NCBI RefSeq assembly: GCF_000377205.1
Contig: NZ_KB897905.1
Span: 124,001-188,000 of the forward strand
Length of the DNA stretch: 64,000 bases
Direction: 5' to 3'
Origin: Thioalkalivibrio sp. ALJ3
GTDB taxonomy: Bacteria; Pseudomonadota; Gammaproteobacteria; Ectothiorhodospirales; Ectothiorhodospiraceae
Shown: positions 20,227 through 23,089 of the stretch, in pieces
Layout: each line of letters begins with the position of its first letter
How positions within the stretch are numbered: position 1 is the first letter of the stretch
Translations under genes and position numbers: made by a program
The notes under the pieces: generated by a model
The model's database searches: none
Told to the model about the DNA's origin: nothing
Seen by the model: only the letters and a program-made list of their open reading frames with translations

Positions 20227-21654
20227 TCAGGCCGCCTCGCGGCCTCCAGCAGTGTCCGACAGCGCGCGGTTCCACGCGGTCATTCCGCCCACCACGTTGT
20301 ACACCTCGCGATACCCCAGCCGTTGCAGGATGGAACCGGCCACGGTCGAGCGGTAACCACTGCCGCACACCACCGTAACGGCCTCGCTACGGTCGATCGC
20401 GGGAACACCGTCACGCGTATCGGCCACCGGCTGATTGACGGCCCCTTCGGCATGGCCAGCGGTGTACTCGGAGACCGCCCGGACGTCGAGCAGACGGACA
20501 TCACCACGACTCAACGCCTCACGGGCACGGCCCGCGTCCAGCTGAGCCAGGGTCGCCAGGGGCAGGCCAGCCATGCTGTAGGCCCCCATGCCGCCGCGCA
20601 CATAGCCTTCGATGTAGTCGCGCCCGGTGCGCACCAGGTACCGCACGGCCCGTTCGATCATCGCCGGGTCACCATCCTGGTCGACCAGCACGATCGGGGT
20701 GTCATCCGGCGTGACCCAGCCGGCCCAGTTGGCGAACGGACCATCGATGCCGATGCCCAGGGCATTCGGGATGTGGCCGCCACCAAATGCCAGCGGATCG
20801 CGCAGGTCGATCACGGTAATCTCGCCGGACTCGGCACGGCGCGCGACCTCGGAGGGCTCCAACGGCCGGTCCAGACCCGGGAGCGGGATGACCGAACGCG
20901 GGCCCTCGGAGTTGATGCGCTTGTTGCGCGGGTAGAAATCCGGGATGGGCGGCAGGCCGTCCAGCAGCTTAGCCACGAAGGCATCTTCGTCCAGCGCCGG
21001 ATCCAGATACGGATTCGTACGCCGTTCGTAGCCCAGCGTGGACACCGGCCGTCCGGCCATACCGGCCCCGCAGGCGGAACCGGCCCCGTGGCCCGGATGC
21101 ACTTCAACGCCATCGGGCAGATCGCCCAGTTGGTCACGCACACTGGCAAACATCTGGCGCCCCAGCGCCTGCTTGGCCTCGTCGCCGAGCAGGTCCGGGC
21201 GCCCCAATGCGCCGACAAACAGGAAGTCGCCGGTCAGGATCGCGATCGGGTCCTGCTCGGCACGGGCGCCGTCGTACACCATGAACATCAGGTGTTCGGG
21301 GGTGTGCCCCGGCACGTGGCGGGTCTCCAGGCGTACGTTACCCAAACGGATGACGTCGCCGTGGTGCAGGTCCTCGTGCGGGAACTGCACGTGAAAGTGT
21401 TCACCTTCGTCATGTCCGGACAGCAGCAGATGCGCGCCGGTCTTGTCCGCCAGCTCGCGGGCACCGGAGGCGAAATCGGCGTGAATATGGGTATCCATCA
21501 CGTACGCGATGCGGTAGCCATGGCGTTCCGCGTAGTCCAGGTACACATCCACGTCGCGCCGGGGATCCACGACGGCGATTTCGCCGCTGCCCTGGCAACC
21601 GACGACGAAAGAAAACTGGGACAGACCGGTGTCCTCGAAGCGTTCCAGAATCAT
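20227..21654 (-). CDS. CstB-like persulfide dioxygenase-rhodanese fusion
   Basis: A 475-residue three-domain protein. Residues 1-250 are an ETHE1-type metallo-beta-lactamase fold with the iron ligand motif THIHADFASG, the His of VPGHTPEH, the Asp of LTGDFLF and the His of HPGHGAGSACG. Residues 260-365 are a rhodanese fold whose Cys position reads LVDQDG, so it is a pseudo-rhodanese. Residues 370-475 are an active-type rhodanese with VVCGSGYRS. The same order is known in Staphylococcus CstB, which oxidises low-molecular-weight persulfides and yields thiosulfate. AGGAGG precedes the ATG and a large dyad covers the promoter. It takes the place next to mltD where E. coli has gloB. Confidence 0.9.
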   Translation of the reverse strand: MILERFEDTGLSQFSFVVGCQGSGEIAVVDPRRDVDVYLDYAERHGYRIAYVMDTHIHADFASGARELADKTGAHLLLSGHDEGEHFHVQFPHEDLHHGDVIRLGNVRLETRHVPGHTPEHLMFMVYDGARAEQDPIAILTGDFLFVGALGRPDLLGDEAKQALGRQMFASVRDQLGDLPDGVEVHPGHGAGSACGAGMAGRPVSTLGYERRTNPYLDPALDEDAFVAKLLDGLPPIPDFYPRNKRINSEGPRSVIPLPGLDRPLEPSEVARRAESGEITVIDLRDPLAFGGGHIPNALGIGIDGPFANWAGWVTPDDTPIVLVDQDGDPAMIERAVRYLVRTGRDYIEGYVRGGMGAYSMAGLPLATLAQLDAGRAREALSRGDVRLLDVRAVSEYTAGHAEGAVNQPVADTRDGVPAIDRSEAVTVVCGSGYRSTVAGSILQRLGYREVYNVVGGMTAWNRALSDTAGGREAA

Positions 21655-21675
21655 GCCCCCTCCTTCAGGTTCGGG

Positions 21676-21718
21676 TTCGTGCTAATTTCTGACTAATTTG
21701 GTCAGTTATTAGCACGAA
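21676..21718. promoter_or_regulatory. nested inverted repeat at the persulfide dioxygenase promoter
   Basis: Outer arms TTCGTGCTAAT (21676-21686) and ATTAGCACGAA (21708-21718) are perfectly complementary over 11 bases. Between them is a second dyad, CTGAC (21689-21693) and GTCAG (21701-21705), around TAATTTG. The whole 43 bases is almost one palindrome with two mismatched pairs. It ends 22 bases upstream of the start codon, where core promoter elements are expected, and is AT-rich against a GC-rich background. An operator for a sulfide/persulfide-responsive repressor is the likeliest reading; a transcript hairpin is the alternative. Confidence 0.6.
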
Positions 21719-21751
21719 AGTTCCCGAAGGGCCAGATTGAATGGGACTGGA

Positions 21752-23089
21752 TCAGTGATCGCCGGCGGCGCGCGGGATGGTCTCGACGTCGACCTCGGCC
21801 TCCAGCCGCACCGCATCCGGGTCCAGCCCCGCCTCGTCAAACAACTGGCGATAGCGACGCTCGGGCAGACTCAGACGCAGCTGAATACCACCGTCCGGGG
21901 CGGTCTGTTCGGACTCGACTGCCTTTTCCTCGTACAGCCGCGCGCGAAGGCGCCCGGCACTGGCCGGCAATTCGACCCAGCCGCGGAGCATGGACTCGGT
22001 AAAGGTCTCGGCCAGGCGCCGCTCGAGCCGGGCCACGCCCTCGCCGGTGTGGGCCGACAGCCAGAAGGCGTCGTCCGCCATGCCGAACCGGTCCTCCGGC
22101 GCGGCAGCCGGATTCTCGAGGCGGTCGATCTTGTTGTAGATGCGCCAGCACGGCACGTCCTCGGCACCGATTTCCTTGAGTACCTCTTCCACCTGGCGGA
22201 TGCGTGCCTCGCGCTCGGGATCGGCCGCGTCGATCACGTGCAGCAGCAGCGCGGCCTCGCGGGTCTCGGTCAGGGTTGCCTTGAAGGCCGCGACCAGCTC
22301 ATGCGGCAGGTCGCGCACGAACCCGACCGTGTCCGCCAGGATCAGCGACTGGTGCGGAGCCAGGTCCAGCCGCCGCAGGGTCGGGTCCAGGGTCGCGAAC
22401 AGCTGATCCGCCTCGTACACATCGGAGTGCGTCAGGCGGTTGAACAGCGTGGACTTGCCGGCGTTGGTATAGCCCACCAGGGACACGGTGGGGATCTCGT
22501 TGCGCAGACGCGCCTGACGCCCCTGCTCGCGGGTGCGCTCGACTTTCTCCAGGCGTCGTTCGATATGCTTGATGCGCGCGGCCAGCAGGCGGCGGTCGGT
22601 TTCGAGCTGGGTTTCCCCCGGCCCGCGCAGGCCAATGCCGCCCTTCTGGCGCTCCAGGTGAGTCCACCCGCGCACCAGCCGCGTGGCCATGTGCCGCAAC
22701 TGGGCCAACTCGACCTGCAGCTTGCCTTCGTGCGACCGCGCGCGCTGGGCGAAGATGTCGAGGATCAGCCCCGCGCGGTCCAGCACACGGCATTGCAAGT
22801 GACGTTCGAGGTTGCGTTCCTGGCTGGGCGAGAGCGCGTGGTTGAAGATCACCACATCGGCGCCCTGGGCCTCGACCGCGGCGCGAATCTCGTCGGCCTT
22901 GCCGGCGCCCACGAACAGACGGGGGTGCGGGCGGTCGCGTGAACCCCGTACGAGTTCCAGCACATCCGCACCAGCGGAGCGGACCAACTCGTCGAATTCC
23001 TGGACCTGGGCCTCGATATCGGGGTTTTCGCCGATGGCCAGTGCCACCAGCACGGCGCGATCGCCGGCGCTGTCGGGGCGCTCAAACAA
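21752..23089 (-). CDS. hflX: ribosome-associated GTPase HflX
   Basis: A 445-residue HflX. The N-terminal HflX domain contains PHPRLFVGAGKADEI and NHALSPSQERNLE, followed by the linker GGIGLRGPGETQLETDRR. The G domain has G1 GYTNAGKST, G3 DTVGF and G4 NKID. HflX splits stalled or stressed ribosomes. It follows hfq by 34 bases, the conserved hfq-hflX order. The C-terminal extension (about 60 residues after the G domain) is usual for proteobacterial forms. Confidence 0.97.
   Translation of the reverse strand: MFERPDSAGDRAVLVALAIGENPDIEAQVQEFDELVRSAGADVLELVRGSRDRPHPRLFVGAGKADEIRAAVEAQGADVVIFNHALSPSQERNLERHLQCRVLDRAGLILDIFAQRARSHEGKLQVELAQLRHMATRLVRGWTHLERQKGGIGLRGPGETQLETDRRLLAARIKHIERRLEKVERTREQGRQARLRNEIPTVSLVGYTNAGKSTLFNRLTHSDVYEADQLFATLDPTLRRLDLAPHQSLILADTVGFVRDLPHELVAAFKATLTETREAALLLHVIDAADPEREARIRQVEEVLKEIGAEDVPCWRIYNKIDRLENPAAAPEDRFGMADDAFWLSAHTGEGVARLERRLAETFTESMLRGWVELPASAGRLRARLYEEKAVESEQTAPDGGIQLRLSLPERRYRQLFDEAGLDPDAVRLEAEVDVETIPRAAGDH

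Follow-up and report, generated by a model that had tools for sequence, protein, structure and literature searches.

A candidate IscR-type operator within a nested palindrome upstream of a persulfide dioxygenase gene in Thioalkalivibrio

In most descriptions, persulfide dioxygenases (PDOs) are under the control of persulfide sensors. In Thioalkalivibrio sp. ALJ3, the gene for a predicted enzyme of this kind (pdo) is preceded by a 43-bp nested palindrome, and the locus raises the question of which part of this element is conserved and which regulator would bind it. The analysis started from the window, i.e., the whole 64-kb stretch of DNA, and was extended to other genomes of the genus and the order.

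The palindrome and the gene it precedes

The palindrome reads TTCGTGCTAAT-TT-CTGAC-TAATTTG-GTCAG-TT-ATTAGCACGAA, with perfect outer arms of 11 bases enclosing an inner dyad, CTGAC-N7-GTCAG (Table 1); the nested layout given in the preliminary description was recovered at the same place, as was its closeness to the ribosome-binding site, with 21 bases between the dyad and the ATG, AAGGAGG among them. A repeat search describes the element as 21-nt arms, 86% complementary, around a 1-nt spacer. When all centres of the 64-kb window were scanned for dyads with 21-base arms, it ranked best with 18 of 21 pairs, followed by a runner-up with 16, and the maxima of 15 first-order Markov simulations of the window were 15–16 pairs. 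The outer-arm pattern occurs at one place in the window, in none of 100 dinucleotide shuffles, and at a single place across the 2.63-Mb genome of the strain. With one genomic place only, the full palindrome was ruled out as a repeated operator; of the further genomic copies that had been sought, it has none, whereas its inner box recurs before iscR, which heads iscS and iscU and is itself preceded by cysE.

The pdo product is a metallo-beta-lactamase (MBL) protein with two rhodanese stretches. Its MBL match is barely above the Pfam cut-off (24.3 vs 22.7 bits), and it aligns over nearly its full length with 3tp9 and 3r2u, the latter of which we take to be a staphylococcal protein. By this combination of MBL and rhodanese domains over nearly the full length, the predicted product is of the CstB type. 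The gene lies downstream of hflX in five of eight orthologous loci; in the other three, hflX was not found near pdo (1.5 kb upstream; 5 kb for locus L032, the twin of G014). Because the box described below stays at pdo while hflX adjoins it in only five of the eight loci, the element keeps with pdo.

Table 1. Features of the pdo upstream region, in window coordinates
Feature	Coordinates	Strand	Basis or remark
pdo, CstB-like persulfide dioxygenase-sulfurtransferase (MBL + rhodanese), predicted, 475 aa	20227..21654	-	domain matches; alignment with 3tp9 and 3r2u
Ribosome-binding site AAGGAGG	21659..21665	-	read from sequence
43-bp nested palindrome	21676..21718	.	outer arms 21676-21686 / 21708-21718; inner dyad 21689-21705
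Candidate IscR type-1-like box, 25-mer ATTTCTGACTAATTTGGTCAGTTAT	21685..21709	+	iscR-site matrix 25.4 bits; pattern matches
Candidate -10, CCAAA, within the box and 16 nt downstream of GGAACTT (inferred)	21697..21701	-	
Conserved GGAACTT block, upstream of the box; candidate -35 of ECF/RpoE type	21718..21724	-	GGAAC shared by all eight orthologs
hflX, same strand, upstream of pdo, outside the element; start codon uncertain	21752..23089	-	

The inner dyad and the boxes of iscR promoters

Genes with 72–100% identity to pdo are present in 8 of the 47 genomes of the order, and two more genomes hold only a homolog of 37% identity; close orthologs (72 and 76%) sit on two Thioalkalivibrio contigs. 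GGAAC precedes all eight orthologs and GGAACTTT seven of them. Downstream of GGAAC and in fixed register, the inner dyad is kept in seven of the eight orthologous promoters, in the shared form of an AATA-N-YTGAC-N7-GTCAR-like dyad. This conservation upstream of homologous genes argues for the earlier proposal that an operator lies over the pdo promoter. In the eighth ortholog (G009), the upstream region is alignable but decayed and the box is lost (-5.5 bits); the iscR box of that genome is weak as well, at 17.0 bits. No box above 7 bits was found within 250 bases upstream of any of 11 distant pdo homologs (36–55% identity). Since the box is absent from all 11 distant homologs and lost in one ortholog, a link between IscR and pdo would be a family-level trait. 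Three homologs of 54–56% identity (L166, L167 and L168) have a different upstream sequence in common, GTTGAGAAACT ... CTGATA-N-ATTCCCAAG-N-CACGCTTATT, and it contains no box of the IscR kind.

The box was scored with a 25-position matrix built from 20 typed iscR sites, 18 of them distinct; L077 (G009), L121 (G033) and iscR genes that had no upstream sequence in the set were left out. The window box gives 21.4 bits on the strand opposite to that in Table 1, and the next site in the window reaches 7.0 bits. The iscR sites themselves score 24.7–43.1 bits in training and 19.1–42.4 bits when each is left out in turn. The seven pdo boxes, at 22.2–33.4 bits on the better strand, fall within the leave-one-out range; two of them lie under the lowest training score of 24.7, which counts against their assignment to IscR.

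Pattern searches led to the same class of promoters. With two mismatches allowed, a pattern derived from the dyads at pdo returned 13 distinct places in 30 genomes of the genus, namely six at pdo, six at iscR and one other. A degenerate box pattern, composed after both the iscR and the pdo boxes were known, gave 40 rows, or 35 distinct places, in the 47 genomes, and its reversed control gave 0. Three of these places (G060:C52, G061:C39 and G065:C1:3490965) fall outside the 32 that were examined, which comprise 23 before IscR-type genes, 6 before pdo and 3 elsewhere. Since the pdo boxes were already known when these patterns were written, the matches at pdo are not independent; the independent part of the search is what else it finds, namely iscR promoters. 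In the strain's own genome, with three mismatches allowed, the box stands only at iscR (C3:84598-84622) and at pdo. Fifteen of the 23 IscR-type genes belong to the genus of the strain and share 77–100% identity with its IscR. The other eight belong to genus g5, where seven are about equally near to the paralog IscR2 (62–66%) and to IscR (60–62%), and the gene of G033 is closer to IscR2 than to IscR (74 vs 56%). The three places elsewhere comprise one in G011 and two in genus g5 that precede a QueD-like frame; in L124 and L144 of that genus, at about 1495–1525, an IscR-like site stands before this frame, and a dxs-like frame lies nearby.

Compared with the boxes that precede iscR in its own genus, the conserved inner dyad is, by its letters, the box of iscR promoters. 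The conserved part of the palindrome, just downstream of GGAACTTT, is thus probably a type-1-like operator for IscR, the [2Fe-2S] regulator of the Rrf2 family. Like the type 1 operators known from E. coli iscR, it combines YTGAY-N7-GTCRR with ATA...TAT-like flanks and an A/T-rich middle, a likeness drawn from the same-genus iscR boxes. It differs from them in preceding a persulfide dioxygenase gene, in having a GGAACTT block in place of the iscR-type -35, and in the 11-base arms added in the window species. The cluster ligands C92, C98, C104 and H107 are present in the strain's IscR, which scores slightly below the NCBIfam cut-off (203.4 vs 207.55 bits). In the accessible part of PMC11475020, S40, Y41, E43, Q44 and R59 of E. 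coli IscR are named for contact with type 2 sites, and all five residues recur at identical positions in the IscR of the strain.

Promoter elements, outer arms and competing readings

The RpoE promoter in its E. coli form has a GGAACTT -35 and a TCnnA-like -10 at a spacing of about 16. Within the genus, GAACTT-N16-TCCA precedes rpoE in 12 of 12 loci (L103–L114) at the same distance to the gene, as expected for autoregulation. In the pdo promoters, CCAAA lies 16 bases beyond GGAACTT (G036 has CTAAT there, and neither block is intact in G009), a fitting distance; rpoE has TCCA at this place, and the imperfect match to the RpoE -10 counts against the assignment. The pattern GGAACTTT-N14-16-YCNAA has one genomic match, at pdo, and carries little weight because its reversed control also gives one. 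GGAACTT/GGAACTTT probably serves as the -35 of a putative promoter of ECF/RpoE type that the box overlaps and whose transcription start would lie inside the dyad.

Perfect outer arms occur in one of the eight species, that of the window; the arms of its relatives pair in part, with different letters, each species having 7–11 pairs with its own arm among 16 outer positions. The earlier remark that the element exceeds a usual site in size and perfection therefore holds for the window species and not for its relatives. The proposal that two dimers bind or that a transcript hairpin forms fares less well, as the conserved part is a single box of one-dimer size. For six lineage representatives, own-arm pairs sum to 52, compared with an average of 44.2 for the full set of re-pairings; the observed value is reached by 6 of 720 re-pairings in fixed register and by 17 of 720 with gaps, or, when the window species (G000) is omitted, by 6 and 17 of 120, respectively. 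The complementarity is a weak sign of compensatory change, and it would fit structure, protein contacts or template-switch mutation alike.

This weak excess of pairing within over between species, together with a stable predicted fold, at -20.7 kcal/mol in the window species, between -10.9 and -14.0 in six orthologs and -5.3 in G009 (values that stand without a shuffle control), is what a leader RNA hairpin acting in attenuation, processing or stability has in its favour. Such a role appears improbable, however, because the inner dyad keeps its sequence beyond what pairing alone would require. Moreover, a start set by GGAACTT would land within the dyad, so that the right-hand arm alone would be transcribed and the leader hairpin could not form; as for a start further upstream, a search of 21600-21900 gave no sigma-70 promoter, and no conserved block was seen by eye upstream of GGAAC in the pdo orthologs. 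Rfam gave no match at E values up to 1 in 601 bases around the dyad, and no intrinsic terminator was detected at the dyad, a single terminator-like site lying at 21619-21634, inside pdo. Template switching at replication can make imperfect palindromes more perfect, and it is quite conceivable, although we would not presume it, that the outer arms are a mutational by-product of this kind. The restriction of perfect arms to one of the eight species compared, with relatives pairing partly in other letters, speaks for such an origin, which is compatible with an operator; it leaves the conserved core unexplained. We treat the 11-base arms as a species-level extension and claim no function for them.

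The identity of the binding protein was considered in the same way. The genome encodes two IscR-type paralogs, the second of which, IscR2, is encoded beside purF, scores above the cut-off (210.5 bits) and shares the cluster ligands of IscR while having boxes of its own; an NsrR-like gene is also present, at 147.2 bits against a cut-off of 182. Upstream of IscR2 (L094:3760-4000, on C2 of the strain's genome) stand two tandem boxes, ATTATTCCTGAC-N7-GTCAGG, both copies of which recur in many genomes of the genus, with a single copy in others. The box at pdo could belong to IscR2, since YTGAC-N7-GTCRR is common to the IscR2 boxes, an IscR2 matrix gives the window site 22.6 bits and the seven pdo boxes 19.0–25.2 bits (in G014, 24.7 vs 25.0 for the IscR matrix), and in genus g5 the genes that the box precedes are about equally close to both paralogs or, in G033, closer to IscR2. 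We nevertheless regard this as unlikely: the own-genus IscR2 boxes have ATTATTC before the dyad, where the pdo and iscR boxes have AATAC or AATAA, none of the 32 examined box places lies before IscR2 in the genus of the strain, and each of the seven pdo boxes, taken on its better strand, scores 0.3–13.6 bits higher with the IscR matrix than with the IscR2 matrix. These comparisons favour IscR over IscR2 as the putative binder.

A sulfide or persulfide sensor had initially been suggested as the regulator, and a search for ArsR- and CsoR-family genes had been proposed. It yielded three ArsR-family genes (PF01022), none of them on the contig of the window, and 0 matches to the CsoR family (PF02583) in the strain's genome, compared with matches in 6 of 14 control genomes. 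CstR is a member of the CsoR family, and the lack of a CsoR match in the genome speaks against a CstR operator. It might still be supposed that the outer arms are the site of an ArsR-type sensor akin to BigR or SqrR, or of FisR, and that the inner dyad is incidental, given that one of the three PF01022 genes is fused to rhodanese and adjoins a second PDO gene, and that PDO genes elsewhere are under BigR- and CstR-type sensors according to the accessible part of PMC9995734. We consider this very improbable, as the sequence of the outer arms is not conserved across orthologs and has no second genomic copy, whereas the conserved part is an IscR-like box. With three ArsR-family genes in the genome, an additional sensor besides IscR may nevertheless exist.

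At the second PDO locus (L100:1525-5254; C3:13524-17253 in the strain's genome), the ArsR-rhodanese gene is followed by the second PDO gene and by an MFS transporter gene; this gene order recurs in L013–L017. In all six of these loci, an IscR-like site of 14.2–20.5 bits (18.2 bits for L100:2057-2081) lies between the ArsR-rhodanese gene and a divergent gene. The latter encodes 150 aa with no match to a Pfam or NCBIfam family, and a homolog with 88% identity stands downstream of the box site in G011. The site may serve either the ArsR-rhodanese operon or the divergent gene. The matrix scan covered 41 loci and 265,659 bases and recovered the known boxes of the pdo loci L032 and L033; because unrelated loci in it reach 10–19 bits (18.8 in L048), scores under about 20 bits are no evidence alone. 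The site scores lower than the boxes at pdo, but it would agree with a broader link between IscR and PDO, in which both PDO loci may answer to IscR.

A proposed link between iron-sulfur status and persulfide clearance

In the model that we infer from sequence, which extends to binding, repression, signal, sigma factor and purpose, IscR carrying its cluster would occupy the box and shut off the pdo promoter, and loss or oxidation of the cluster under iron shortage, oxidants or high demand would release the repressor. The isc operon and pdo would then rise together, and persulfide made or released during Fe-S assembly or damage would be oxidised by the dioxygenase, so that control of pdo would be linked to the persulfide made by IscS. 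According to the accessible part of PMC12594620, binding to type 1 motifs is specific to [2Fe-2S]-IscR, with repression by this form known for the site class, and once the cluster is oxidised, binding is weaker and isc is derepressed; pdo would, by analogy, follow isc in this.

Among known systems, the cst operon of Staphylococcus aureus (CstR-CstB) shares the MBL-rhodanese architecture of the enzyme, and differs in that no CsoR gene was found in this genome and that the site here is IscR-like. BigR/Blh and SqrR, which are of the ArsR type, resemble the present case in regulating PDO-sulfurtransferase genes and in the ArsR-rhodanese gene beside the second PDO; with all three PF01022 genes off the contig of the window, they are set apart by gene location. 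A link between IscR and a persulfide dioxygenase was not stated in the open-licence literature, among the matches listed; PMC10509353 has both terms solely among its references.

If the model is true, sulfane-sulfur detoxification would be tied to Fe-S assembly, a process that itself runs on persulfide from IscS. We put forward, tentatively, that in this haloalkaliphilic sulfur-oxidiser family IscR switches PDO, with persulfide clearance wired to Fe-S status and co-regulated with cysteine desulfurase, that both PDO loci may answer, and that the outer arms of the nested palindrome give the operator a further layer at the level of the species. In the accessible part of PMC6382920, a role of PDO in the sulfur oxidation of Thioalkalivibrio is doubted because sulfide:quinone reductase was seen in two strains only. 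The IscR-like box suggests a testable role for PDO in these bacteria, in which iron-sulfur status, rather than persulfide itself, may switch pdo.
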